Shown in pieces: positions 725 to 36,894 of a DNA stretch of 41,803 nt. The notes beneath the pieces were generated by a model. That model was not told where the DNA came from, did no database searches, and worked only from the letters and a program-made list of their open reading frames with translations. The DNA is taken from IMG/VR virus record IMGVR_UViG_3300041809_000716, positions 1-41,803 of that record. The stretch is one strand, 5' to 3'. Origin of the DNA: a virus. The position numbers and the translations under genes are program-made. How positions within the stretch are numbered: the stretch's first letter is position 1; every line of letters begins with the position of its first letter.

Positions 725-2491
725 TTACTGGCAGAGGACTTGGACGACTGTTCCGTTGACGTTCATGGGAAAAGAGTGGCCGACCGAGGCGGAGGAGGTG
801 CTGAGGGTGACGTCGGTTCGGATTTGGCCGCCGACATGGAGCTGGTCCGAGCCGTCGTCCGAACCCACGCCGAGTCCAGTCCGTCCCGAGGCGAAGAGAA
901 GGAGCGCTGTCGTCGAGGACGTGGTTTCGAACTGGTGGCTCGACGCCTCGTAGATAATGAGGTCGGCCTTGCCAAAGGTCGTGATGAGGCCTTCAGACCC
1001 ATCCCATCCGACGTTGAGCGAGTGCGATGCGGTTATGCCCCACTGATCGAAAAGGGAATTGCTGCCCGTCGTCACGTGGTTGAACGCCGTGACCGTTTGC
1101 AGCACCTTCCCGCTTGCCGCCGCGAGAATGAGGTTGTCGCCGCTCGCCGAGGTAATTCCTCCGGAACCGGCGGTGAGGCTCAGGGCGCTTAGGTTTCCGG
1201 AGGTGTCGGAGGTGAGCCCCGAATTGCTTCCGTAGGTGGTCGATCCGGTGAAATAAAGCAGCCGGGTGCTCGTACCGCCAGACAGGACCGCGGGGATTGT
1301 GTTTTGGGCATACCAGCCCTTTGTTCCGCTGCCGTTCGTGCCGTAAAAGTAGGAATTGCCAGGGGAAGCGGAATCGCCGGAAAGCGAGACTGTGCCCGAA
1401 CTGTTAGAGAGGCTGTCGATGAACGTGTACGTGTTTGCCGTTCCTCCCATGCCCGAAATCGCTATCGATCCTTCGGTCGTGCCCGAACAGGACAAAAACA
1501 GCGTCACGCTCCCGTTATTCGCCAAGGTCGAGGGAACACCTCCGCCTGCAACCCAAGAGGAATTGACCGTTATGGTCGCCGACCCCCCCGATAGATTGGT
1601 GATTGTTATGATCTGAAATCGTCCCGCGAGCATTCCGTCCGAACCCGACGGAGACAGGCTTATGCTCGATGTCGTAAGGCCGATGTTCGCATAACTTCCT
1701 TCGTCGAATCGGATTTGAACGTTTCCGCCGGTCGCGTAAGTGAGGGCATTGTATTGCAATGGCCCCGTCAGCGACAGGATGTTGAAATTGGCCGAGAAAC
1801 CGGCCGCAAGCAGGCTTGACGGCGAATAGCCGCTGTCCTGGATCAAAAGCCCAGTCGTCCCGTTGAACGCCGCCAAGTGCCCAGGAGCGGCGATTGACGG
1901 GCCGCTGACGTTGCCCAGCCCGGCGCTCGCCAGTGGGATGAAGGTCGGAACACCCAGGTTGCTGAATCCCAAAAGGCATCCCTCGCGCTGCGAAAGCGGC
2001 AGCACCCCGCTGATCGTCTCGTCCGGCTGGAACTGCAGGCCCAGCCCCTGATAGTTGGCCACGAGGCCGATTTGCTGCACAAGCATCGTCAGTTTGTCGA
2101 GGCCATTGCCGATCATCGCCGCTGTCAGCGGGCCGGTGTTCGTGAAAGTCGTCGTCTGGGTGAGCGGCACCGACCGCGTGACGGTGATCACGTCGCCGAT
2201 CTGCACGCCGTTTGTGCCGCCCGGGATCGTGATGACGTTGCCGGTATTCCCCCCCCCTCCCGTCACCGAGTAGTCGCTGTTCAAAACCAACTGCGTCGGC
2301 GGGCTGGTCTTGCTGTCGAGAACGAAAAGGTCGGCCGGAAATTGGAACGTGAAGGGGACGACCAGCGTTTGTGGATTCGATGATAGCGTGTATTGCGACC
2401 AAGTGGTCGAACTCGAAACGGTTGCCCGGGCCGCCGGGAGAACCGACAACGCCAGCGAAACGACCAAGATGAATGCTTTCAGGAATTTCAT
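725..2491 (-). CDS. Tail fibre-like protein with T7-type N-terminal domain behind a signal peptide
   Basis: 588 residues. Residues 1-23 read as a Sec signal peptide (Lys at 2 and 5, a Leu/Val/Ala core, Ala-Arg-Ala cleavage site). Residues about 29-150 resemble the virion-attachment domain of T7 gp17: a Tyr-x-Leu opening, a Val-Pro-Phe-x-Phe strand, Leu-Asn-Ser-Asp-Tyr, a Gly-Asp-x-Ile-Thr-Val-x-Arg strand and a closing helix. The middle holds phrases common in phage fibres (GHLAAFNGTTGLLIQDSG, about residues 205-225), followed by a Gly/Ser/Thr-rich shaft and a short C-terminal segment with a conserved-looking Asn-Gly-Thr ending. Its place after the internal virion genes matches gp17 in T7. 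The signal peptide is hard to reconcile with cytoplasmic virion assembly. Fibre identity is fairly secure; the attachment-domain match is by eye. Confidence 0.8.
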   Translation of the reverse strand: MKFLKAFILVVSLALSVLPAARATVSSSTTWSQYTLSSNPQTLVVPFTFQFPADLFVLDSKTSPPTQLVLNSDYSVTGGGGNTGNVITIPGGTNGVQIGDVITVTRSVPLTQTTTFTNTGPLTAAMIGNGLDKLTMLVQQIGLVANYQGLGLQFQPDETISGVLPLSQREGCLLGFSNLGVPTFIPLASAGLGNVSGPSIAAPGHLAAFNGTTGLLIQDSGYSPSSLLAAGFSANFNILSLTGPLQYNALTYATGGNVQIRFDEGSYANIGLTTSSISLSPSGSDGMLAGRFQIITITNLSGGSATITVNSSWVAGGGVPSTLANNGSVTLFLSCSGTTEGSIAISGMGGTANTYTFIDSLSNSSGTVSLSGDSASPGNSYFYGTNGSGTKGWYAQNTIPAVLSGGTSTRLLYFTGSTTYGSNSGLTSDTSGNLSALSLTAGSGGITSASGDNLILAAASGKVLQTVTAFNHVTTGSNSLFDQWGITASHSLNVGWDGSEGLITTFGKADLIIYEASSHQFETTSSTTALLLFASGRTGLGVGSDDGSDQLHVGGQIRTDVTLSTSSASVGHSFPMNVNGTVVQVLCQ

Positions 2492-11862: not shown

Positions 11863-12308
11863 GTGACAACCCCACTCTCCGGCGGGTGGTAGTTTTCGAC
11901 GCCGACCAAAGGCTTTGCGTAAAGGCGGTGCCCGCAGTCTTCGGCAGAAGTCACGTACCCCATCTTCGACATGATGCGCTCCTCGCTACCCTTCGGCTTC
12001 ACGAAGGAAAGGACCGCGATGCACCCCTCGGCCTTGGCGACCGCCTCGAGATGCTCGTACAGCCCCTTCACGGCCATCAGGAGGTCACGGGAAAACGCGC
12101 ACTTCGGGTTCGTGGTCGTCCACTCGATGACGCCGATCTTGCCCGGGTCCATGTAGAGGAAGCTCGCGGCGATTTCCACGCCAGAAGCCTCGGCCATCCA
12201 CCCGCGCGGCAGTATCATCTTCGGGACGGCCAGAACATGGTGGTCCCTCCACCACGAGCAAAGCGTCTCGTAGTCCTCTTGAATAATAATGGGGCGAAAG
12301 TGTATCAT
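11853..12308 (-). CDS. GNAT-like acetyltransferase-fold protein, T7 gp13-position
   Basis: 151 residues beginning at an ATG that overlaps the nozzle stop (ATGA). The sequence follows the GNAT pattern: an N-terminal strand (Met-Ile-His-Phe-Arg-Pro-Ile), a helix with a Trp-Trp pair, a strand carrying a small-molecule-facing segment, a long helix (about 75-92) and a C-terminal Lys-Met-Gly-Tyr resembling the C-terminal GNAT motif. It lacks a clear Arg/Gln-x-x-Gly-x-Gly/Ala acetyl-CoA loop, so it may be inactive. T7 gp13 holds this position and GNAT-like annotations are common there. Its role in virion assembly or in modification of a virion or host protein is open. Confidence 0.65.
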   Translation of the reverse strand: MIHFRPIIIQEDYETLCSWWRDHHVLAVPKMILPRGWMAEASGVEIAASFLYMDPGKIGVIEWTTTNPKCAFSRDLLMAVKGLYEHLEAVAKAEGCIAVLSFVKPKGSEERIMSKMGYVTSAEDCGHRLYAKPLVGVENYHPPESGVVTCP

Positions 12309-15300
12309 GGGGTCGATGCGATGTCGTAGTCCACAGCCACGCCGCGGACGGTGAGTGGCAGCGGTCCCGATGTCGAAATTATAACCGGGATTGTCAGCCC
12401 GTAGTCCCCCGGGAAATCCGTGATTCGTTTATTGCCGGTGAAGAGCGGCGTCTCGGCCAACGGATCCGAGGTCTTTCGGAAGACGACTTCATGCTTCCGC
12501 GCCGACCCATCCGTCACCGTACAGGCGAGAGTATTCAATAGGCTCAAAGTCAGTCGGCAGACCTTCTTGATGAGACCCTGGGTGACTCCAGTGTGGACAT
12601 CCACGTCCAAGTTCATTGGCTGCACGGTGCTGGTGAACGGCAGGCCGATCTGGGCCACCTGCTCGACCTCGCTGTTCGGCGTGAAGTTCGGCACCACGAT
12701 ATCCCCGCCAGCCGTTCCGGTTCCTGTCCCTGGTCCTGTGGCTACGAAGAGCAAGCCCACGGTATTTGAGACGGCGCCGATGGCCGTGAAGTCGGTAGTT
12801 CCAATGGTCAGGATCTGGTAGACGTTCCCGGTCACGAAAGTTCCAGCCTGCTGGGACACGGGAAATAACCCGTAATCCTGAGCGTTGATGCACACGGCGA
12901 CCGTGCGGCCAGTGAGGTAGGCAAAACCCGGAAAGACATTGCTCGTTGGGCTAACGAAGGTCAGGCCGCAGTCCACATAGTAGGCTTGATCCTTGTCCGG
13001 CCCATAACCCGGAGTCTGTCCTGGCTGTGGTATAATGGACTGCCAGTTGATGGGGTTCATGCGCTCCATGAAGCGTGTGGAGACACCGTTGATCGTGCGG
13101 TTTACGACGCACCAGACCTCATCGTCATTCGTGCCAGTCCCTGGGATCGAACAAACCGACTCAAAACCTGCGTCCGTGACGGTATTCTGCCCTGGCTCCC
13201 AATTGTTCGTATCGTTTGCCGGATCGACGGTGCTGCCCGAGATGTTATTGATGCACTCGTACACGTTTTGATTGAGCAGCGACGTGGCGAACTGCCCCAC
13301 GGTGTAGCTCGCGCCGCTCATCCACGGCTGCGTTACCAGGGGGCTATTCAGGCCGGTGTAGTGGCGGTGCCAGCCGAAGATTTCCTGGTCCAACTCGTAG
13401 GTCATCCCGACCATCTCGCCATTGAGCGTCGTGGCCCAGACAAAGCCGTTTTTCTGCCCCTGCTCCTGGTAGGCCAGTTGAATCGCCCCGCCGTTTAGAA
13501 CTTCGTCGGAAAGCGCGGTCAAATCCTGGCTCATGTACTTGTTGGTCACCACCGAGTAGAGCATCTGCCTTAGAGACACGGCCTGACGCTGGGCGAATAC
13601 CAGGGCATCCCCGACGACTTTGGCGGGAACATTCGGATTGCTCCCCCACTTGGATTGGCGCTGGGCATTGATATTCTGGGGGGTGATGGCCTGCGAGCCA
13701 TCGCCGGCCGAGACGACCCACTCGGCAGTCGAGAGCCCGAGGAAGAGAGCGTCCTGGCTCTGCATCCAGAGGATCGCCCCATCCCCAACGGCATCGAGAT
13801 CAAAGGCCATCCCATCGGTCGCCAGCGTCTGGTCGCCAAGATCCCAGTTTTGGATGTCGTCCGTCTGGGTGCCCCAGATCCGCTGCGGCTCGAAGGCCGT
13901 GAAGCCGCACCACACCCTCTGCTGAAACGCTGTGGTGCACGCAGGATAGCCGCGCACGGCCGACCACGCGCCCTCGGACCAGTAGACCGTGGGCCATCCA
14001 TCTGCCAGCCAGTCTGTCGGATCGCTCGGGGGAGGAGTGCTTCCGGAGGTGTCGTTGATGCAGATGTAGTTCACCCCGTTGTAGCCAACCCGGTCCCCGC
14101 CCAAGTAGCCGTTGCCGCTTATCCACTCGTCGGCCACCGTCAGTGGCGTGATCACGGTGGCAACCGCATGGTAGGCGTCGGTCACCGCCGTTATTTGGAC
14201 AATGCCGTAGAGGAAGGCGTCGACGCACTCAAAGACGATGCGTGGGTTCGTCGGACCAGGGGTGATAGGAACCGCGACATTCGTCACCACTATCTGGTAA
14301 AGCTGCGGCTGATCTGCTGTTCCGGCTATATCCACATTGCGGTCATTCCTGCCCGTCACGGTGCTCACCGACTGCCAAGTGTTACCTCCATCGTCTGAAC
14401 TCTGGATTTCGATGTCGGCCGACCAGACGCCGTAGGTATGCACTTCCCAGGTTCCAAAGGCAGTGATTGTGCTCGATGTGCCCGCAGAGAAGCCACTGGC
14501 TGCCGTACCATCATATTCAACGTAGGCCGAGTCCCGAAGGTAGGAGAGTTCCCAGTAGGCTCCCACATGGCCAGAAAGGAAGATCGGTGTCTCGGTCCAG
14601 TCTCCGTCAGCCAGATCCACCGCAAAAATGTTTGATGTGTGTGGGACGTTGCACTCGTAGATATTACCACCCTCGAGCACCGAATCCCCGACATCGTAGT
14701 AGGTATCCGTCACCCAGGCAGGAGCGGTGGCGGTGAGGTTGGTTGATCCCGATGCCGAGGATGCCGCGATGGTTGTGTCGGTCGCATTTTCATCCAAAAG
14801 AGGAGGGGTCAGGTCTTGGACAACGGCATAGACCCAGTCGGTGTCCGAGTAGCGAGTAAGGGAAGCTCTCGGGTAGTTCGGGTGGCTGATGTAGATGACG
14901 TCGTTTATGTCGCAGAACTGGAGTTGGAAAACGTCCGTGGCCGCGAGGCCACCTGCCCCGACCAAGGCCCCATAGGGGGTTTCTAACTCAAGCGGACTAT
15001 TCGTAGACCAATGAGCCGTGTCCAGATCAGGGGTGACAATGCTGTTGGGCAGCCCCACGAGGCATCGGTAGGAGACGCCCGAGTAATTCACGAAATCTCC
15101 CAGAGCGTAGGTGGACCCAGAGTTCCAAACGGGAGGAGCGAAGGTGGTTGGCGTAGGGTTTGGAACCTGAACCTGCGCTCCGTTGGAATAGAATCTCACG
15201 TAATTGTGCCCCCACTCCATGACGAACTTCGTGTTGGTCGAGAAGATGAACTCCTGCGAACGCGCGCAGTAGTCGCCAGCCCCGATGTATTTGGTCGGCG

Positions 15301-15469
15301 CAATCATTTGAAGCCCCAGCCTGCGTGTCGCCGGACCTGTCTTTAGCGCCAGCATGTTCCTTAGCTGGATGCAGGCCGCGCGGTACTTCTGCTGGTCGAC
15401 GCGAGCGGTGAGCGTGGGGGACCATTCCCCAGCGCTAAATGAAACAAGGGCTTCTGTGGATTTCGCCAC
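12305..15469 (-). CDS. Tail nozzle (tubular protein B, gp12-like) with four CBM5/12-like insertions
   Basis: 1054 residues, larger than T7 gp12 (794). The N-terminus has the nozzle signature: Phe-Ser-Ala-Gly-Glu-Trp-Ser-Pro (11-18), Arg-Val-Asp-x-x-Lys-Tyr, Asn-Met-Leu and Gly-Pro-Ala-Thr-Arg-Arg-Leu-Gly. Four segments share a Trp...Tyr-x-x-Gly-(Asp/Gln)-x-Val...Gly...Tyr-x-Cys...Trp pattern at residues 115-154, 252-291, 449-487 and 716-757, resembling CBM5/12 chitin-binding modules. Residues about 873-920 hold a Gly-Thr-Thr-Asp-Phe-Thr-Ala-Ile-Gly-Ala module that recurs in many phage tail proteins. It follows the adaptor gene by 3 bases and overlaps the GNAT gene by 4. It should form the hexameric tip of the tail tube; the inserted modules probably project outward. 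Nozzle identity is strong; the module family is by pattern. Confidence 0.85.
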   Translation of the reverse strand: MAKSTEALVSFSAGEWSPTLTARVDQQKYRAACIQLRNMLALKTGPATRRLGLQMIAPTKYIGAGDYCARSQEFIFSTNTKFVMEWGHNYVRFYSNGAQVQVPNPTPTTFAPPVWNSGSTYALGDFVNYSGVSYRCLVGLPNSIVTPDLDTAHWSTNSPLELETPYGALVGAGGLAATDVFQLQFCDINDVIYISHPNYPRASLTRYSDTDWVYAVVQDLTPPLLDENATDTTIAASSASGSTNLTATAPAWVTDTYYDVGDSVLEGGNIYECNVPHTSNIFAVDLADGDWTETPIFLSGHVGAYWELSYLRDSAYVEYDGTAASGFSAGTSSTITAFGTWEVHTYGVWSADIEIQSSDDGGNTWQSVSTVTGRNDRNVDIAGTADQPQLYQIVVTNVAVPITPGPTNPRIVFECVDAFLYGIVQITAVTDAYHAVATVITPLTVADEWISGNGYLGGDRVGYNGVNYICINDTSGSTPPPSDPTDWLADGWPTVYWSEGAWSAVRGYPACTTAFQQRVWCGFTAFEPQRIWGTQTDDIQNWDLGDQTLATDGMAFDLDAVGDGAILWMQSQDALFLGLSTAEWVVSAGDGSQAITPQNINAQRQSKWGSNPNVPAKVVGDALVFAQRQAVSLRQMLYSVVTNKYMSQDLTALSDEVLNGGAIQLAYQEQGQKNGFVWATTLNGEMVGMTYELDQEIFGWHRHYTGLNSPLVTQPWMSGASYTVGQFATSLLNQNVYECINNISGSTVDPANDTNNWEPGQNTVTDAGFESVCSIPGTGTNDDEVWCVVNRTINGVSTRFMERMNPINWQSIIPQPGQTPGYGPDKDQAYYVDCGLTFVSPTSNVFPGFAYLTGRTVAVCINAQDYGLFPVSQQAGTFVTGNVYQILTIGTTDFTAIGAVSNTVGLLFVATGPGTGTGTAGGDIVVPNFTPNSEVEQVAQIGLPFTSTVQPMNLDVDVHTGVTQGLIKKVCRLTLSLLNTLACTVTDGSARKHEVVFRKTSDPLAETPLFTGNKRITDFPGDYGLTIPVIISTSGPLPLTVRGVAVDYDIASTP

Positions 15470-15472
15470 GGC

Positions 15473-16381
15473 TTATCCTGCCGTTGAACCCCAACGGGAA
15501 CGGAGGAAATTCGACTCCCTCGTTGGATCGTACCGCCGGTCCTTTCGCTCGCCAGCGTCCTTCATGCGGGCGTTCGGAAGCACGTCGGTCACGAATCGCT
15601 GTCTTAGCTCCTGGGCCATCTTCCCATCGTCGCCGCGGATTACCGTGGAAATCTTGGACGCGAGAATGATCGCCAGGGCTCCGACAAAGAGCGGGTCGTA
15701 GATCGTCGTGTCCTGGATGAACGCCGTGTATTTCACATCCGCGTTCGGCGCGTTGCAGAAGAGACAGAGCTGGTTCGAGGTCGACTGGTTGGCTGGGTTC
15801 GGCGTCTGGACGACGTAGATTTCATAAAGGCTCCCCAGACCCCGCTGCTCGGTGCAGTCGTTGCCATTGAGTTCGGTGATCAAGAGATAGTCATTCGGCA
15901 GCGCGAAGGCGTTGCGCCACTCGTACATTCCTCCAGCATTGCCGGTGTTCGTCCCGTAGAAACTGGAGTAGATTTGCGCCCAGTAGCCGGCCGTCAGGTC
16001 GTTTATGAAATTGAACCCCGAAGTATAGGTCAGCAGGCAGTAGTAGATTGCCTCGCCGTAGGTGACGAGCGTGCCGCCAGTGTAGGCGGTGTGGGCCGCC
16101 CAATAGGGCGGGGGAGTGGTGGGAAGGGTCCCGGGCCATCCGAACCACGTCTGGGTGTTTCCGGGCAAAGGGGGAGTAAGAGGGGCAAGGTTCTGCCGCT
16201 TTTTTAGGCAGTTCCAGTTGTGGGCCCGGCCCGTCTCTCGGACGGACTGCCAGAAGGCCGCCGAACCGGCCAAGGCCCGGGGCTCGTTCGTGTCGTCGAT
16301 CGAGTCGACCGCGGGGCTACCTACCTCCTGCAGGGCCAAATTAAGGATGTCTGTCGGCGAAAGGGGAGCGTAGGCGGCCAT
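15473..16381 (-). CDS. Tail adaptor (tubular protein A, gp11-like) with one CBM5/12-like insertion
   Basis: 302 residues against 196 in T7 gp11. The N-terminal helix with Asp-Ile-Leu-Asn-x-Ala-Leu-x-x-x-Gly-Ser-Pro-x-Val-x-Ser-Ile (11-28), then Glu-Pro-Arg-Ala and a His-Asn-Trp-Asn-Cys, is characteristic of the gp11/gp4 adaptor family that sits between portal and nozzle. Extra length comes partly from residues 94-134, which repeat the Trp-x-x-x-x-x-Tyr-x-x-Gly...Tyr-x-Cys...Trp pattern found four times in the nozzle. A Lys-Asp-Arg-Arg-Tyr-Asp-Pro ending is near the C-terminus. Order adaptor-nozzle matches T7. Confident. Confidence 0.85.
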   Translation of the reverse strand: MAAYAPLSPTDILNLALQEVGSPAVDSIDDTNEPRALAGSAAFWQSVRETGRAHNWNCLKKRQNLAPLTPPLPGNTQTWFGWPGTLPTTPPPYWAAHTAYTGGTLVTYGEAIYYCLLTYTSGFNFINDLTAGYWAQIYSSFYGTNTGNAGGMYEWRNAFALPNDYLLITELNGNDCTEQRGLGSLYEIYVVQTPNPANQSTSNQLCLFCNAPNADVKYTAFIQDTTIYDPLFVGALAIILASKISTVIRGDDGKMAQELRQRFVTDVLPNARMKDAGERKDRRYDPTRESNFLRSRWGSTAG

Positions 16382-23880: not shown

Positions 23881-25535
23881 GCCAGTATGCTCCTTGGTTT
23901 CGGCCGCCAGTCGCCGCGGGCCGCATTCCAACCGGCCAGGATGACCTTGCGTTCGCCGCCCTGGCTCTGGCGGGCGATCATGCTCGTGCCGGGCAGCAGT
24001 CCTTTTAGCTCGGCTTCCGCCAGGCAGCGGAGGGCATCGGCTCCGTGGCTGTTCTCGTCGTGGACCGGCATCTCCTTGATGACGCCGCTGCTCGCGTCCT
24101 GCTTGGTGTGGTAGCCTTCAAGGCAACCGATGCCGGATGGCATGATGCGACCCTCGTGGAACCACTCTGTTCCGCAGTTCGTCTTATGGAAGACGAAGCG
24201 AGGGAGCAGGGATCGGAGACGCTGGATGCCGAGCCATTTGTCATCGCAGACGGTCACGACCTGGGTGTTCGGCAGTCCGCACTCGCGCAGATAATCCCGA
24301 TAGCTTTTCCCGCTGAGTTCTTTCGAGTCGGCGTCGTGCGGCAGGAAGTTGGTCTGCACGACCGTCTCGTAGCGGCGCTCCCACTCGCGGACCACCGCGG
24401 AGTAGTAGGGCGGATCCTCCCCGCAGTTGCAGCGGTAGGCCAAGACCCAGAACTCGGTGCCCACGAGCTGAACGAGCCAGATCGACGTGAAGTCGGAGCG
24501 GCCGATGTCCCAGAAGGTCAGCAGCGGATTGTTGCGGTCGTGCTCGAAATCGACGATCCGCTTCTTCGCCCGAAGCTGGGTGATCAGCTTACCGTAGATC
24601 GAACCCGAAACGACGGCCTCGAAGCACTCCTCCACGACCGACGGATACTCTTTGAGGATCGACTCGCCGATAGTCTGCTTCTTTTTGACGTACCAGTACA
24701 TCTGCTCGCGGGTGAGCTTGATGCCGCGCTGGGCCAGGCGCTCGAAGTATTCGGCGTCTTCCTGGCTGAGCTTGAACCACTGATCGACCGCCAGCGTGTA
24801 TTTGCGATGCCTCCACCACTCGAAGAAATGGAACCGCCAGTCCATGGCCGACAGCGGTTCGCGGGCCTCCATGGCGATCCGATTGAAGTGGTACGAGACT
24901 CCGAATTTCCCGCCCTCGTGCGAGGATTCGATGACGACCGTGTTGCCTGGGTGGACAGTGTTGACCGCGCCCTTCTTGATTTCCTCCGCGCGCTCAGGGT
25001 CGTAGAACGAGATGTAGGCCAGCTCCGTCACCCAAAGGAACTGCAGGGTGCCACCGCGCATGTTTGTGCCGCACCAGACCTTCGATCCGTTCTTCCACTG
25101 CATTTCCTTCTTATTGTCGAAGACGAGAGGCACAGAAGCTTTGATCAGCGCACCGATGCCCGAGGTCGTCGGGTCGTCTGCATCGTCCAGGTGCTCGTAG
25201 GCGAAGCTGATCTTGGCAAGCTTGCGCTTGCCGTCGTCGTCCGTCTTGTCGATCACGCCGCAGGTTTTGTTTCCCGAGAAGAGGCAGAAGTCCAACACCC
25301 GGATGGCGACGTAGGTCGAGATCCCGATCTGGCGGGTCTTCAGCACATCGTTCAAGCAGTGCCAGTTGTTGTGAAGCGCCACCTGCTCCTCGTTGGGGTG
25401 AAACTTCACCTTCCGGCCGTTCTCGTCCTCGATCCAGTAAAGATTGTCCAAACGCCACGCTTGGCTGGCGAGCTTCCGGCGTATCTCCTCGCGGGCCGCT
25501 TCCTCGGACACGTGGAGTTGGTCGGCGTCGGTCAT
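23877..25535 (-). CDS. terL: Terminase large subunit
   Basis: 552 residues, normal for TerL. ATPase part: a variant Walker A, Leu-Lys-Thr-Arg-Gln-Ile-Gly-Ile-Ser-Thr (65-74), a Walker B-like Phe-Leu-Trp-Val-Thr-Glu (166-171) and a Glu-Ser-Ser-His-Glu-Gly-Gly coupling motif (203-209). Nuclease part: Phe-Trp-Asp-Ile-Gly-Arg-Ser-Asp (342-349, metal-binding Asp344), a Pro-His-Asp-Ala-Asp segment (400-404) and a final His-Asp-Glu-Asn-Ser-His-Gly-Ala-Asp-Ala-Leu-Arg (493-504, Asp501). It docks on the portal and cuts the genome when the head is full. Unusually it follows the tailspike gene and is about 9.5 kb from the putative small subunit. The start shares one base with the tailspike stop. Confidence 0.92.
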   Translation of the reverse strand: MTDADQLHVSEEAAREEIRRKLASQAWRLDNLYWIEDENGRKVKFHPNEEQVALHNNWHCLNDVLKTRQIGISTYVAIRVLDFCLFSGNKTCGVIDKTDDDGKRKLAKISFAYEHLDDADDPTTSGIGALIKASVPLVFDNKKEMQWKNGSKVWCGTNMRGGTLQFLWVTELAYISFYDPERAEEIKKGAVNTVHPGNTVVIESSHEGGKFGVSYHFNRIAMEAREPLSAMDWRFHFFEWWRHRKYTLAVDQWFKLSQEDAEYFERLAQRGIKLTREQMYWYVKKKQTIGESILKEYPSVVEECFEAVVSGSIYGKLITQLRAKKRIVDFEHDRNNPLLTFWDIGRSDFTSIWLVQLVGTEFWVLAYRCNCGEDPPYYSAVVREWERRYETVVQTNFLPHDADSKELSGKSYRDYLRECGLPNTQVVTVCDDKWLGIQRLRSLLPRFVFHKTNCGTEWFHEGRIMPSGIGCLEGYHTKQDASSGVIKEMPVHDENSHGADALRCLAEAELKGLLPGTSMIARQSQGGERKVILAGWNAARGDWRPKPRSILA

Positions 25536-27052
25536 TAGAATAGTATTTCCGTGATCGAATCGTTGGTTCCGCTGTCCGTGTAGTTCGTCGCGCAGGATGC
25601 GAAGGTCAGGTCTCTCGCGCTCGATGTGTTTGCTGACGAATCAAAAATGAATCCGGTTCCTGTGCATTCCGCTATGAAGCAAGTTGCCACTTTATTATAG
25701 TAACCAGCCAATGAGATTCCGTTCGTGCAGGTTGATGAACCAACCACACCGAGACGGCAGCCTGTGATTATGTTGTAACCGCCAGCTCCTCGTGAACCCG
25801 AAGCCTGTTTGATCCCATACGTCGGCGTCCCGTTCCAAAGCACGTAAAGTTGGTCCACATTGTTCTGCGCAGAGCCGCCGAAATCCACGGCCCCCACATA
25901 GGGATTGCAGTAACATCCACCCTTTATCCAGGTATTCCCGGTCCAGTCCCCACAAACCCACCCTTTTCCCACATTAACGGCATCGCAGTTGTTGAAGACC
26001 GTTCCCTCAGTGGCAAGGGAGGCCCCGGAATTACCGTCTATATTGTACGCGATTGTTGAATTAGTTCCTGCGTAACCATACACAGAGCACCCATCAAGGT
26101 ATGTGTTTCCACCCACCGTAAGAATGTTGAAGCCTATGGTCGGCCAGCTTGCGCTAGTGGACTGTTGGTAGGTTATGTCATTGAGGTAAAAACGCAGGGC
26201 TGGAAAGGTGCTCCTCAGGTCCACCCCGTGGTCCCAGTTGCCAGTGATTAAAATGTCGGCAGCGACCAAAAGCGTCGTGATCGCCGCAGCGCTCGATCCG
26301 CTTGCGTAGGCGAGGGCGTAATATCCTGACCCAGGGGTTCCCGTCTGGTTGAGGGCTAGGTTCCTGATTTGGGCAGTCGAACCCCCCGTCCCATAGTTAA
26401 AATAGATCCCCTGACCTGCGCAGTTCAGATTTGTGCAGCTCTGGCCGTCGCCCAGTACTAGGGCCGGGACGGTGATAGCCGTCAAGTTGCTTGAAATCTT
26501 GTAATTGTTTGGAGTCGCTGGAAAATATAGAACGCCAGCCCCGGCAGAATTTAGGGCGGCTATGGCCGAGTTGATTGCACTAGAGTCATCCGTAGACCCA
26601 TTGCCAGTAGCGCCGTAAGTTTTGACGTTGAACCACGGTAAGGCGCCGGATGATCCGTTCGCCGCAGCGGTAAGCCTACCATCGGCCCCGACCGTGATGT
26701 TCGGGTTGGTGTAGGATCCAGGCGTCACTGCCGTCGCCGGGATGTCGGCCGCAACCATGCTCCTGAACGTCGGTGCTGCTGCAGACCCGCTCGCTGGTCC
26801 TGCGAGAATTTTATTCGCAAGCTGGATCGCCTTCGTGAGCGCCAGTGTTCCTGAACTTGTGATCGGACTTCCTGCGACCGCCAAAATATCGGTCGGCACA
26901 GTCATCGCCACACTTGTTACAGTTCCAGACCCACCCCCACCGCCTCCAGTCGGTGTTCCTCCGGTTGCTGGCGTGTTGTCAGGTTGGGGCCCTTGCGCTG
27001 CCCTGTCTGTGACGGTGACCGATCCCGTATTGCTGGCGGGTGAGCCGGCCAT
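25535..27052 (-). CDS. Tailspike with right-handed beta-helix (pectate-lyase-like)
   Basis: 505 residues with a very strong Shine-Dalgarno. The N-terminus is low-complexity (a Gly run at 36-43), then Gly-Thr-Val-Thr-Ser-Val-x-Met and Ser-Ser-Gly-Thr-Leu-Ala-Leu, standard in phage fibres/spikes. At 139-180 the Trp-Phe-Asn-Val-Lys-Thr-Tyr-Gly-Ala-Thr-Gly-Asn-Gly-x-Thr-Asp-Asp-x-x-Ala-Ile segment followed by Gly-Val-Leu-Tyr-Phe-Pro is the start of a Pectate_lyase_3 beta-helix; repeats of Asn/Gly/Thr-rich coils run to the end. Such spikes bind or cut capsule/O-antigen. It has no recognisable virion-anchoring domain and is encoded away from the tail genes, next to the sugar-transfer cassette. Catalytic residues cannot be assigned. 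Confidence 0.85.
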   Translation of the reverse strand: MAGSPASNTGSVTVTDRAAQGPQPDNTPATGGTPTGGGGGGSGTVTSVAMTVPTDILAVAGSPITSSGTLALTKAIQLANKILAGPASGSAAAPTFRSMVAADIPATAVTPGSYTNPNITVGADGRLTAAANGSSGALPWFNVKTYGATGNGSTDDSSAINSAIAALNSAGAGVLYFPATPNNYKISSNLTAITVPALVLGDGQSCTNLNCAGQGIYFNYGTGGSTAQIRNLALNQTGTPGSGYYALAYASGSSAAAITTLLVAADILITGNWDHGVDLRSTFPALRFYLNDITYQQSTSASWPTIGFNILTVGGNTYLDGCSVYGYAGTNSTIAYNIDGNSGASLATEGTVFNNCDAVNVGKGWVCGDWTGNTWIKGGCYCNPYVGAVDFGGSAQNNVDQLYVLWNGTPTYGIKQASGSRGAGGYNIITGCRLGVVGSSTCTNGISLAGYYNKVATCFIAECTGTGFIFDSSANTSSARDLTFASCATNYTDSGTNDSITEILF

Positions 27053-27735: not shown

Positions 27736-28533
27736 TCAAGAGTCCCTGAGCCGCAGTTCGGAATGCCCAACCCACCACTCGGTCAGGGGCGCGTGGTTGC
27801 CTTCGATGAACGGTACGTCCTGAAAACCTCGGTCTGAGCCTTCATGGGAAATGCCTCGCTGGTCCGGGCTGAAGACTCGATCGTGATTTCCAAGCTCGGC
27901 CGCCCACCAGCTAAAGGTCGAAGGCGCTCGGAACAAAACCTTGGCACGCATCAGCAGAACGAAGTCTGGCAGGAAGCCTATGCCTGGGATGTGGTCGCTC
28001 GCACGTCCCTTCCAGCGGAACATGGGGTCAATATGCGGCACGGTGCTGGGCTCCTCCTCAGAGACGAACACGAGCTTGGCTCGGTCCACCCCATACTGAT
28101 CGCAGGCCCGGAGGTACGAATCTTTGCTGATGCAAATGAATCCCCCGTGCGTCACATAGTCGCCCCAACGTAGGTGCGCTGCAGCCTCAACCGTCGGCAC
28201 CGAACGAAGCAGGTCTAGAATCTCCGGCCGGAACTTGAACCATCGCCGTGCATCCGCCCGCGTGTATATCAGGTGCTTGCCGTGCTGCGGATCGCCCCGG
28301 ATGCAAACGTCCACCCGCCCGTTCCACTGCTCGAACTCGAACGTGCCAACCTCGGGCAGTCCGTTTGGGTACATCGGCATTGTCTCATGCTCGATCCCGA
28401 ATATCTCATGGGCCTGCGGCCAGGGGCTCGTGCGCAGCGTGCAGCCGTACTGCTCAGCGTACTTGCGGGCGAATGCGTATTTAAACAGTCGATTTCCCCA
28501 GCCCCCGCTCATCTCGCAGTCGATGAAGGGCAT
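27736..28533 (-). CDS. GT11-family glycosyltransferase (fucosyltransferase-like)
   Basis: 265 residues, typical for bacterial alpha-1,2-fucosyltransferases. Motifs in order: Gly-Gly-Trp-Gly-Asn-Arg-Leu-Phe-Lys-Tyr-Ala-Phe-Ala (10-22; family consensus GGLGNQ-FQYAFA), His-Leu-Arg-Trp-Gly-Asp-Tyr-Val (120-127; consensus HxRRGDY, with the second Arg replaced by Trp) and Ser-Thr-Phe-Ser-Trp-Trp-Ala-Ala-Glu-Leu (205-214). The enzyme would transfer a sugar, usually fucose from GDP-fucose, to a glycan acceptor in the cytosol. The Arg-to-Trp change sits in the nucleotide-sugar site and could alter donor use. Last gene of the surface-sugar cassette. Confidence 0.85.
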   Translation of the reverse strand: MPFIDCEMSGGWGNRLFKYAFARKYAEQYGCTLRTSPWPQAHEIFGIEHETMPMYPNGLPEVGTFEFEQWNGRVDVCIRGDPQHGKHLIYTRADARRWFKFRPEILDLLRSVPTVEAAAHLRWGDYVTHGGFICISKDSYLRACDQYGVDRAKLVFVSEEEPSTVPHIDPMFRWKGRASDHIPGIGFLPDFVLLMRAKVLFRAPSTFSWWAAELGNHDRVFSPDQRGISHEGSDRGFQDVPFIEGNHAPLTEWWVGHSELRLRDS

Positions 28534-29146: not shown

Positions 29147-30577
29147 TTATTTGATGACGCGCTCCAGCCGAGGCAGAATGTACTCCCGTTTCTTCGTCGC
29201 GTGGGTCAGTCCGTCATCATGCACATTGCCCCAATTCTCCCGTACGTTGCGTTCTGAGAGGCGGGCGCGCATCCCATCGTAGCGTCGGGCGATGCGATCA
29301 ATCGGGCCCAGTTGGTGGCAGTGGAGCATGAAAACAGGTGGGTAGGTCTTCGCGGTGTCCTCCCGCATGTTGACCGCTCGGCCATCGTAGAGGACAGGCC
29401 GGCTCTCGTGCGCTCCGATCCCGAAGCCGGACTCGGCCACTATCGTAGGGCTGAACATGACCGGCTTGGCGTACCACTTGTCATCTCTGGCGCCGATCTT
29501 GACATGATCGTACAATTGCCCAGGTCCACTCGGGAAGGTCTCGGAGAACATTTCGAAGCCATGTGGCTTGACGATCCCGATGTCGAGCCGGGCGTAGGTC
29601 TCCAGCGTGTCCGCTATCCCTTCAGGGAAGTAGATCAGCTCGTCGGCGTCGACGACGATCACCCAGTCAGCCTCCGTTCCCCGCCAGCACTCATTCTTCA
29701 AATCCCGCGTAGTGGCGTCGTTCATCTGGCCGCCCGTGTCCCAAGGGACCACCGCACCGTACTGAAGCGCGATCTGCCGAGTGCGATCGGTAGATCCTGC
29801 GTCGTGCACCACGATCTTGCTGGCGAACTGCGCGTAGTGCCGAAGGGTCCACGGAAGGATGTCCTCCTCATTGAAGGCGATGATGTGCACCTCAATCTCC
29901 ATCTCTCGGAAATCGTAGTGCTTGTGGTGGCGCAGGTAGGGGCGCTCCCAAAATTCCCGGTAGGCGTAGGCGTCCAAGCCGATCACCTCTTCAAGCCTGA
30001 TCAGGTTCCAGTCCTGATGGACGCCCTCGGGGTTGATCGAGCGGTGCTCGCCAGAGTACCCAGGCTTGCCGGGCATGCCCTTGATGCCGACCACGAATCG
30101 CTCCGAGTCGTTCCGGGGCATGTGGAGGTAGCGTCCTCCGTCCTTTAGCCATAGCCGGGTGTCGAAGAATGGGCTGTCGTAAGACTCGATCGTGTTGCAC
30201 AGGTACTCAAACAAGTCGGAGGTGATCGCGGTCTGGCAGAGAGCGGCGTGGCGGACGTTGCAGCATTCGGACCACCAGCGGTGGCGCACGGAATAGTAAA
30301 AGGCATCTCCCTGGCCTACGATGTCGAAACTCTCCAGTTGCTTGGCGCACCACGCGAGCCAGTCGGGATGATACCAGTCGTCATCCTCAATCCACACCAG
30401 CCCTTCACCCTTGACCTGGCCGGACTCGATGGCCTTCAGGACTTTAATCGGCATCGGCTCCGGGCCGTCGAGGACCAGCCACTGGTCGGGCTGGCGGGTC
30501 TGCCGATCGATGTACTTGCGGCACAGCTCCATCGCCGCCGGGCGCTCGTAGGTGCAGGTGAGGGCGGTCAGATTCAT
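29147..30577 (-). CDS. Two-domain GT2-type glycosyltransferase
   Basis: 476 residues. Domain 1 (about 1-215): an N-terminal Leu-Thr-Cys-Thr-Tyr-Glu-Arg-Pro strand and Trp-Ile-Glu-Asp-Asp-Asp-Trp-Tyr (62-69) with the DxD-type metal site. Domain 2 (about 225-476): Val-His-Ile-Ile-Ala-Phe-Asn-Glu-Glu-Asp (230-239), His-Asp-Ala-Gly-Ser-Thr-Asp-Arg-Thr (258-266) and Trp-Val-Ile-Val-Val-Asp-Ala-Asp-Glu (305-313), the pattern of GT2/GT92-like glycosyltransferases. Two catalytic domains in one chain may add alternating sugars. It overlaps the small gene before it by 4 bases. Confidence 0.85.
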   Translation of the reverse strand: MNLTALTCTYERPAAMELCRKYIDRQTRQPDQWLVLDGPEPMPIKVLKAIESGQVKGEGLVWIEDDDWYHPDWLAWCAKQLESFDIVGQGDAFYYSVRHRWWSECCNVRHAALCQTAITSDLFEYLCNTIESYDSPFFDTRLWLKDGGRYLHMPRNDSERFVVGIKGMPGKPGYSGEHRSINPEGVHQDWNLIRLEEVIGLDAYAYREFWERPYLRHHKHYDFREMEIEVHIIAFNEEDILPWTLRHYAQFASKIVVHDAGSTDRTRQIALQYGAVVPWDTGGQMNDATTRDLKNECWRGTEADWVIVVDADELIYFPEGIADTLETYARLDIGIVKPHGFEMFSETFPSGPGQLYDHVKIGARDDKWYAKPVMFSPTIVAESGFGIGAHESRPVLYDGRAVNMREDTAKTYPPVFMLHCHQLGPIDRIARRYDGMRARLSERNVRENWGNVHDDGLTHATKKREYILPRLERVIK

Positions 30578-35005: not shown

Positions 35006-35632
35006 TCACGACACCCGCTCCGCGAACTTCTCTACCTTACCGCCGTCGATCGAGGTCAGCAGCTGGCTGAAGCTTTCGACGATCTGCACAACGTGCTTCT
35101 CGGCCGGCCCGTCGCCCGCGATCTTCGTGTAAACCTCGAGCGACCGGGCCCGGGCGTTCATGTACGCCGGGCTGGCGCCGCGGCTGCGCGCGTCCCGTGC
35201 CAGGATCTCCAGACGCTCCTCCCGGGTGAGCAGCCGGTGAAGCTCGAAGCGGCCCTGCAGGCGCTTGATCTCGGCTCGAACCTTTGGGTTCTGCGCTATG
35301 CGATAGCCGTGCGTTGCGAGATATCGGGCGCTGGTGTCGCGCGGCTGGTAGACCTGCTCGTAAGCCTTGGTTTGCGAAAGGCCCATTGCTATGAGACTGG
35401 CGAACTCCCTCTGGCGCGAGGACAAACCCTCTATCACAATCGGTGTAGCCTCTTTTGTGGCCTGGGTAGGGGCTACAAGTTGGATTTGCTCCTGCTGCTT
35501 CGCCTGCCAGTCTGCGAGGGTTGCCTTGTCGGGGGCAGAGAGTACGCGGCCGGCCTGCAGCTTCTTCAGGATGTTGGCAACGTTTTGGCTTTCAATGGCC
35601 TCCTGCGTTGCGATTGCCTTCTCTTCGCTCAT
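35006..35632 (-). CDS. terS: Probable terminase small subunit
   Basis: 208 residues from the ATG overlapping the methyltransferase stop; an open frame extending upstream is rejected. Residues 70-126 fit the TerS N-terminal HTH region: Leu-Ser-Ser-Arg-Gln-Arg-Glu-Phe-Ala-Ser, Gln-Thr-Lys-Ala-Tyr-x-x-x-Tyr and Ala-Gln-Asn-Pro-Lys-Val-Arg-Ala-Glu-Ile-Lys-Arg-Leu, where known proteins have LTxKQxxFxxxY ... ATxAAxxAGY ... LxxNPxVxxxI. Here the HTH is preceded by about 65 extra helical residues. TerS recognises viral DNA for packaging. It is about 9.5 kb from TerL, with the sugar cassette between them, an unusual separation. Another HTH role is possible. Confidence 0.7.
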   Translation of the reverse strand: MSEEKAIATQEAIESQNVANILKKLQAGRVLSAPDKATLADWQAKQQEQIQLVAPTQATKEATPIVIEGLSSRQREFASLIAMGLSQTKAYEQVYQPRDTSARYLATHGYRIAQNPKVRAEIKRLQGRFELHRLLTREERLEILARDARSRGASPAYMNARARSLEVYTKIAGDGPAEKHVVQIVESFSQLLTSIDGGKVEKFAERVS

Positions 35633-36894
35633 TGATCTGTGATCAAGGTTGGTTTGCGGCCGGTGAGCTTTGCCCATCGGTCGAGGGTGACAGCAACATA
35701 GGCCGGGAGGATGTCAATACCCAGGCAGACGCGGCCGGTCTGCTCGCAGGCGACGAGGGTGGTGCCGAAGCCAAGGAAGGGGTCGTAGACCGAAGATCCG
35801 ATGAGGGAGTTGTTCTCGATCGGCCGGCGCATGCAGCCGAGGGGCTTGGGGGTGGAATGGCCGTCCCCGTCGCCCTCCCGGGCTGGGTAGTCCCAAACGG
35901 TGGGTTGGTCCCGCTGTCCGGTCCATTGGCTCGTCTTGCCCTTGCGGACGGCGTACCAGCAGGGCTCGTGCTGCCAGTGATAGTTGCCGCGGGAGAGGGC
36001 GAAGCGGTCCTTGCGCCAGATAATCTGGCTACGGACCTCGAATCCAGCTGCCTCCAAGTTGGAGGCCACCGTGCCAGCATGGAGGCCACCGTGCCAAACG
36101 TAGGCCACATCTCCCACGAATAGGGCCCATGCCGGGGTCCAGTCTGCCCGGGCGTCGTTGGCTACCTTTCCCATTTTGCGGGTATTGCGGTTGATTCCGG
36201 CCCTTTTGCGCCAGGCGGGGTCGTAATTCACGCCGTAAGGGGGATCCGTGACCATGAGCCTGGGAGGTGGGATTTTGTTAGATAAAGCGCCATAAAGGCG
36301 CAGGACGTCTCCCTTCAGAGTGGCGTCACCCACGAGGATCCGGTGGTCGTCGCAGCCCCATAGCTGGCCGGTCTCGGTGCCCCATTTCTTTCGCAGCTCC
36401 GCGGCGTGATCGATATCGGGCTCGATGTCCACCTGGGGGTTGCTCCGCGCGATCTTGGCCAGGAGCAGGGCGATTTCCTTGGAATCGTAGCCGGTGAGCT
36501 CGATCTGGGCGCCCTTGGCCGTCAGGTCGCGGATCAGGGCCCCTACCAGTGAATCCTCGCGCTCTGAAAGCTCAGCTATCCGGTTGTCGGCCAGGAGATC
36601 CTGCCATTCCTCCTCCTCGCTCTTGTAGTCCTGCAGGTCGACCGGAACTTCTGCCAGCTTCAGAAAATTGGCCACCAGGAGCTTGCCGTGCCCCTTGATC
36701 ACGTACCCTGATCGGTTGGAAACCACCAAGGGTTGCCGCCACCCCAGGCTCGATATGATCTTGGCGAATATCTCGATCTGTTGCTGGGGGTGCCGGTTGG
36801 GGTTGCGGGGATGGGGTTTGAGCGAGGCTGTGCGCCGCATCTCCTTGAAGGCGCAAAAGATGGGGATGGCCGGCGAGTCCAAAGGGGTCTTCAT
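35629..36894 (-). CDS. ParB-like / DNA methyltransferase fusion (beta class)
   Basis: 421 residues. N-terminal ParB/sulfiredoxin-like domain (about 20-110): Leu-Lys-Pro-His-Pro-Arg-Asn-Pro-Asn, Leu-Gly-Trp-Arg-Gln-Pro-Leu-Val-Val, Val-Ile-Lys-Gly-His-Gly-Lys. C-terminal methyltransferase (about 180-421): Asp-Pro-Pro-Tyr (217-220), Asp-Pro-Phe-Leu-Gly-Phe-Gly-Thr-Thr (371-379) and Leu-Gly-Ile-Asp (391-394), in the IV-then-I order of beta-class N6-adenine/N4-cytosine enzymes; the HxTxKP element reads His-Ser-Thr-Pro-Lys-Pro (346-351). No restriction partner is visible, so it is an orphan, likely protecting phage DNA or marking it for packaging. Coupled by ATGA to the putative TerS. Confident on class; target sequence unknown. 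Confidence 0.9.
   Translation of the reverse strand: MKTPLDSPAIPIFCAFKEMRRTASLKPHPRNPNRHPQQQIEIFAKIISSLGWRQPLVVSNRSGYVIKGHGKLLVANFLKLAEVPVDLQDYKSEEEEWQDLLADNRIAELSEREDSLVGALIRDLTAKGAQIELTGYDSKEIALLLAKIARSNPQVDIEPDIDHAAELRKKWGTETGQLWGCDDHRILVGDATLKGDVLRLYGALSNKIPPPRLMVTDPPYGVNYDPAWRKRAGINRNTRKMGKVANDARADWTPAWALFVGDVAYVWHGGLHAGTVASNLEAAGFEVRSQIIWRKDRFALSRGNYHWQHEPCWYAVRKGKTSQWTGQRDQPTVWDYPAREGDGDGHSTPKPLGCMRRPIENNSLIGSSVYDPFLGFGTTLVACEQTGRVCLGIDILPAYVAVTLDRWAKLTGRKPTLITDQ

Follow-up and report, generated by a model that had tools for sequence, protein, structure and literature searches.

CBM5/12-like modules occupy exchangeable loop sockets in the tail adaptor and nozzle of an uncultured short-tailed phage

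Why would the proteins that build the DNA-ejection tube of a short-tailed phage carry small domains that resemble carbohydrate-binding modules? The question is raised by a 41,803-base IMG/VR virus record, which was analysed over its whole length and is called the window below. Its gene content is of the short-tailed phage type, with terminase, portal, major capsid protein, adaptor, nozzle, internal virion protein, a fibre whose N-terminus is conserved and a spike-like gene on the minus strand; the source is an uncultured short-tailed phage. The nozzle matched phrog_376 (tail protein) at E 7.7e-126 and the solved tail nozzle 8ck1_A at E 2.1e-55 (E 7.2e-197 with a 16-row profile), while the adaptor matched phrog_394 at E 1e-26 and the solved connector 8ck1_E at E 2.2e-7. 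We take 8ck1 to be the structure of Carin-1, a Cobetia phage; its own annotation reads just 'Tail Nozzle' and 'Connector Protein'. T7 gp11 and gp12 were absent among the solved-structure matches of the two proteins at E 1. A tblastn search of 50,697 phage records with the adaptor returned 0 matches, and a search of bacterial genomes for the host with the adaptor alignment returned 14 pattern matches, of which 0 were confirmed. Elsewhere in the window, two genes match phage glycosyltransferase families, whose products could decorate DNA, capsid or host surface, and a third encodes a DNA methyltransferase with a fused ParB-like domain. A further gene, which adjoins the terminase gene and lies away from the tail genes, encodes a 505-aa protein whose residues 139-209 match tail and tail spike families over about 50-70 residues.

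Table 1. Carrier genes, inserted modules and other genes mentioned in the text, with positions in the window and profile scores in bits
Feature	Position	Strand	Protein residues	PF02839	Non-window profile	Remark
Tail nozzle / tail tubular protein B-like	12305..15469	(-)				1054 aa, GTG start; carries modules 1-4
Nozzle module 1	15008..15127	(-)	115-154	30.8	24.9	
Nozzle module 2	14597..14716	(-)	252-291	26.5	50.3	
Nozzle module 3	14009..14125	(-)	449-487	27.5	47.4	
Nozzle module 4	13199..13324	(-)	716-757	10.3	22.8	
'GTTDF' type inserted module of the nozzle	12707..12850	(-)	874-921			about 48 aa; alignment gap in both relatives
Tail adaptor / tail tubular protein A-like	15473..16381	(-)				302 aa; carries one module
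Adaptor module	15980..16102	(-)	94-134	27.0	71.7	
Glycosyltransferase-family matches (two genes)	27736-28533; 29147-30577	(-)				
DNA methyltransferase with ParB-like domain	35629-36894	(-)				phrog_498
505-aa protein	25535-27052	(-)				

A sequence-only reading of this DNA had proposed that four segments of the nozzle and one of the adaptor share the layout of CBM5/12 modules. Against the Pfam family PF02839 (CBM_5_12, curated cut-off 26.2 bits), the whole nozzle scored 66.7 bits (E 1.8e-18) and was over the cut-off, while the whole adaptor scored 24.1 bits (E 3.7e-5), slightly under it. Segment by segment, modules 1, 2, 3 and the adaptor module were over the cut-off and module 4 taken singly was below it. 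A second profile, made without window sequences from 14 modules that other phages carry, found all five segments at 22.8-71.7 bits, compared with a best score of 11.0 bits among 2000 shuffled nozzles and 8.5 bits among 2000 shuffled adaptors. Pfam, the non-window profile and the shuffles agree: the five segments are real, lie where they had been placed and are relatives of the CBM5/12 family. The proposed motif was right in its main elements and too strict in two of them. The first Trp, the first Tyr, Tyr-x-Cys and the closing Trp are present in all five segments, but segment 4 has Ala in place of the Val of the second element and lacks the Gly that comes next. Equivalents of the core aromatics Trp656, Tyr662, Tyr675 and Trp696 of chitinase A1 (ChiA1) were also found in each of the five modules. 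A recent duplication as the origin of the set was ruled out, the other four modules being only 26-36% identical to module 1, and the module profile found no further match among the other window ORFs of at least 50 aa.

Among solved domains, a profile of 19 modules matched 4ilv (an intradiol dioxygenase, E 1.5e-10), 1ed7 (chitinase A1 ChBD, E 2.9e-9) and the deacetylase DA1 (E 5.4e-8). Antibody chains lower in the same list, at E 0.012 and above, were taken as noise. The profile also matched the phage fibre/spike chains 8fqc (gp124), 9rkv and 9zd7 at 7.6e-5 to 1.4e-3, but there the modules belong to the fibre or spike. Similarly, tblastn searches with two single modules gave mostly weak matches, often at E near 1-5 and often to tail fibres, which serve as leads only; those in Pelagibacter phages place the modules in fibres, whereas here they are in adaptor and nozzle.

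The modules are insertions in both carriers, as the sequence-only reading had held. The Carin-1 nozzle and connector are homologous to the window proteins but have short turns where the modules stand, namely about 5 residues between residues 114 and 119 at the module-1 site and about 6 residues in the stretch 63-70 at the adaptor site. Aligned with Carin-1, module 4 has no counterpart, and the region of modules 2 and 3 is not alignable. The two full-length nozzles nearest to that of the window, L006/L011 and L007/L013, have modules 1-3, whereas module 4 is missing from L006 and L007, where the join is uninterrupted, and was seen in the window only among the relatives compared. With 830 aa in the solved Carin-1 homologue, the window nozzle has an excess of 224 aa, of which 161 aa belong to the four modules and about another 48 to an unrelated inserted module. 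The claim that the modules explain much of the extra size, originally framed against T7 gp11 and gp12, thus holds against this homologue.

To what extent are these sites used by other phages? All ORFs in the relatives' loci that matched the nozzle profile were collected, giving 59 nozzles, or 34 after dereplication. The first nozzle socket of these 34 held a CBM-like module in nine, an FCCH-like domain in 12 and another insert in one (L025); it was empty in nine (L033, L036, L053, L058, L073, L077, L078, L081 and L087) and not covered in three. The nine CBM-like cases are the window, L011, L013, L023, L024, L032, L082, L040 (15.1 bits) and L039 (recognised by eye only), and the module of L024, which is split by a nested module, was recognised from the alignment. 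Pfam E1_FCCH (PF16190) was over its cut-off at the first socket of five nozzles (L074, L076, L044, L079 and L030) and at the adaptor site of one adaptor, that of L081, whose nozzle has an FCCH-like stretch at another place, under the cut-off. The name of this Pfam family comes from ubiquitin-activating enzyme and is probably a misleading label here. The FCCH-filled sockets belong to Pelagibacter phages and other records; one of them, L076 (HTVC010P), also has an unrelated insert of about 90 residues at the module-4 site of its nozzle. The adaptors, 65 in number and 37 after dereplication, comprised nine with a CBM-like module (two in tandem in L024), one with an FCCH-like domain and 27 without a module match, among which three long ones (284-406 aa) may contain inserts. 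An ORF upstream of the L024 adaptor (L024:1149-1976, plus strand) gave a weak module match at E 0.035, and the modules may therefore reach a third virion protein.

Socket states were then placed on a tree of the nozzle core with 29 rows, in which deep nodes are poorly supported and from which two L080 ORFs, L010, L031 and L040 were left out. Parsimony required 10 changes on this tree, compared with a mean of 14.4 for shuffled states, and 12 of 2000 shuffles gave 10 or fewer. Since there are fewer changes than after shuffling, yet still 10 of them, the socket state follows ancestry but has repeatedly been exchanged. The sister nozzles L032 and L033 (support 0.989) illustrate this, the former having the socket-1 module and the latter lacking it. 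Overall, the modules occupy fixed loop sockets that in relatives are empty or filled by other small modules. To our knowledge no sugar binding is known for FCCH-like domains, yet they share a socket with the CBM-like modules. Because the sockets can be filled by this unrelated domain or by nothing, they are better described as general insertion sockets than as dedicated sugar-binding sites.

A third module type contributes to this variety. The GTTDF-type module, which takes its name from its sequence, scored 66.2 bits in the window with a profile that includes its own sequence, and it matched no Pfam family (best match E 0.033). Its motif reads Y-x-I-x-x-x-G-(T/S)-x-(D/N)-(F/W)-T-x-x-G-A, and it is inserted at differing places of the nozzle. 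It also occurs nested within CBM modules, inside module 2 in L007/L013 and twice, inside modules 1 and 2, in L024. The nesting point is in each case the second beta turn, which joins the Gly-x-x-Val and Tyr-x-Cys strands. At E < 0.1 the module was also found in two public phage records, in one of them within a nozzle-like 'phage stabilization protein' and in the other within a cyanophage structural protein.

If the sockets are general, the question remains which of the modules are equipped to bind sugar. We take Trp687 of ChiA1 to be the key exposed ligand-binding residue of chitinase A1. In the columns for Trp687 and Pro689, taken from a profile alignment of short sequences in which the placement of gaps matters, the modules fell into two groups. 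At Trp687, the three solved references have Trp, the adaptor modules have Phe in 10 of 10 rows and nozzle module 2 has Phe in six and Trp in one of seven, while modules 1, 3 and 4 have an aromatic in none of 10 rows, with Val, Thr or a gap instead. In the window itself the residue is Phe in module 2 and the adaptor module, Val in modules 1 and 4 and Thr in module 3; it is never Trp. The Pro689 column is the opposite: modules 1, 3 and 4 have the Pro in all 10 of their rows, and none of the 17 adaptor and module-2 rows has it. No single module class retains the remaining ChiA1 surface positions as a set. Judged from these residues, the modules appear to fall into two classes that differ in surface, and sugar binding is plausible for the adaptor module and nozzle module 2 and doubtful for the other three. 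Nozzle module 2 would be the best candidate for glycan contact and the adaptor module the second. On the surface aromatics by which the sequence-only reading was to be judged, the outcome is split, with an aromatic in two of the five modules (17 of 17 rows) and none in modules 1, 3 and 4. The modules are like the CBM5/12 module of chitinase A1 in the core, but differ from it in the Trp687 equivalent and in lying inside virion tube proteins, not beside an enzyme.

The modules also differ in how fast they change. Mean identity across five relatives was 75% for the adaptor module versus 60% for the rest of the adaptor. By contrast, across three nozzles, identity was 31% for module 1, 42% for module 2 and 67% for module 3, versus 69% for the rest of the nozzle. 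These values indicate constraint on the adaptor module and on module 3, and relaxation or change in modules 1 and 2.

The reading that we prefer, tentatively and with slightly more doubt than confidence, is that the modules are interchangeable external decorations for accessory, low-affinity adhesion to surface or matrix glycans. The modules, inserted in loops of the adaptor and nozzle, would most likely face outward from the tube, as modules of 40-50 residues are too big for the DNA channel. On steric grounds, the sockets of essential tube proteins that accept different domains would have to face outward as well. Their likely job would be a weak multivalent grip on cell-surface or matrix glycans that helps the tail approach before or after fibres and spikes bind, and modules 1, 3 and 4 may have another ligand or serve as spacers. 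The fast divergence of modules 1 and 2, compared with the remainder of the nozzle, is what surface parts would show. Solved CBM5/12 members have a small three-stranded fold. AlphaFold models of the nozzle (3-row alignment, pLDDT 29.7) and the adaptor (5-row alignment, pLDDT 35.5) were rejected for too low confidence; in them modules 1 and 2 had short strands at pLDDT about 41-52. In T7 the adaptor is a 12-mer and the nozzle a 6-mer (PMC6702177). If the same stoichiometry applies, about 24 nozzle and 12 adaptor modules would surround the tail. The sequence-only reading had foreseen dozens of sugar-binding sites per tail; this analogy supports the number (about 36 copies), and the reading as a whole is supported in part, sugar binding being plausible for the adaptor and module-2 copies and doubtful for the others.

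The main rival is a structural role, in view of an adaptor module that is conserved more strongly than its carrier; a protein-protein contact would explain this better than a receptor contact that changes. The modules might act as clamps between adjacent subunits or as a collar holding the fibres and spikes, with the adaptor module extending the fibre dock. The adaptor module is present in all seven phages of the window's nozzle clade and sits in the beta-rich part of the adaptor, which is the fibre dock in T7. In a low-confidence model its insertion site appears to be flanked by the second predicted helix and the strand region. Furthermore, the T7 fibre is held between docks of the adaptor and the nozzle (PMC6702177), and the window shares a fibre N-terminus with the relative G001 (54% over residues 4-209). 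However, the fibre was found in only one of the four relatives searched, the other three having fragments or divergent sequence. Relatives also assemble with the sites empty (27 of 37 adaptors without a module match and nine of 34 nozzles at socket 1). Divergence is fast in modules 1 and 2, and among the sequences compared only the window has module 4. We consider a structural role a serious but less likely alternative, above all for the conserved adaptor module.

Less likely still is neutral or selfish accretion, in which stable small beta modules spread by recombination, are tolerated in outward loops and are mostly without function. The presence of unrelated modules or none in identical sockets, the modules within modules of L013 and L024 and the difference between L032 and L033 would all be expected from it. 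It does not account for an adaptor module and a module 3 that are conserved about as much as, or more than, their carriers, or for the aromatic kept at the Trp687 position throughout the adaptor and module-2 rows; this conservation and the kept aromatic suggest that at least some modules are under selection. True chitin- or cellulose-binding modules, with which the virion would ride chitinous or plant particles and not a bacterial cell, are very improbable, since despite the top solved matches to 4ilv, the chitinase A1 ChBD and chitin deacetylase modules, Trp687 is replaced in all window modules and the other ChiA1 surface positions are scattered among the classes.

Adhesion is preferred over these alternatives by analogy with two systems. 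According to PMC10688798, CBM insertions in Dit restore adsorption to EPS-coated lactococci. Like the adaptor and nozzle, the evolved Dit of lactococcal skunaviruses and other siphophages is a core tail protein with or without a CBM insert; unlike them, it belongs to a siphophage baseplate ring and has BppA-like modules (5e7t), whereas the window has a short-tailed adaptor and nozzle with several sockets at once and modules that are interchangeable and nested. The second system is that of tail tubular proteins, which can bind a host receptor (PMC7241545). It resembles the present case in host binding by adaptor or nozzle, but the receptor is a protein and the abstract mentions no CBM. Ig-like domains on phage structural proteins are likewise small beta domains scattered over exposed virion proteins and are thought to aid weak surface adhesion (PMC13320782), but they differ in fold and sites, the window modules being in fixed internal sockets of tube proteins. 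A search of open-licence texts found no description of a CBM in the adaptor or nozzle of a podovirus, and passages from PMC13320782, PMC11440229 and PMC10575957 describe no CBM insertions in either protein. The earlier remark that no such grip had been seen described for this tail type agrees with this result. Module insertions in siphophage tail proteins are already known; what did not turn up in the texts searched is their presence in an adaptor and nozzle at shared, exchangeable and nested sockets.

A broader form of the adhesion reading, which we hold with less confidence than the reading itself, is that the sockets are a clade-wide standard taking CBM5/12-like, E1_FCCH-like, GTTDF-type and nested modules. 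The DNA-ejection tube would then itself be a modular, multivalent adhesion surface that could be retuned by recombination. The host range of short-tailed phages is normally inferred from fibres and spikes. If this proposal is true, part of the contact surface would escape adsorption models and host predictions that draw solely on tail-fibre genes.
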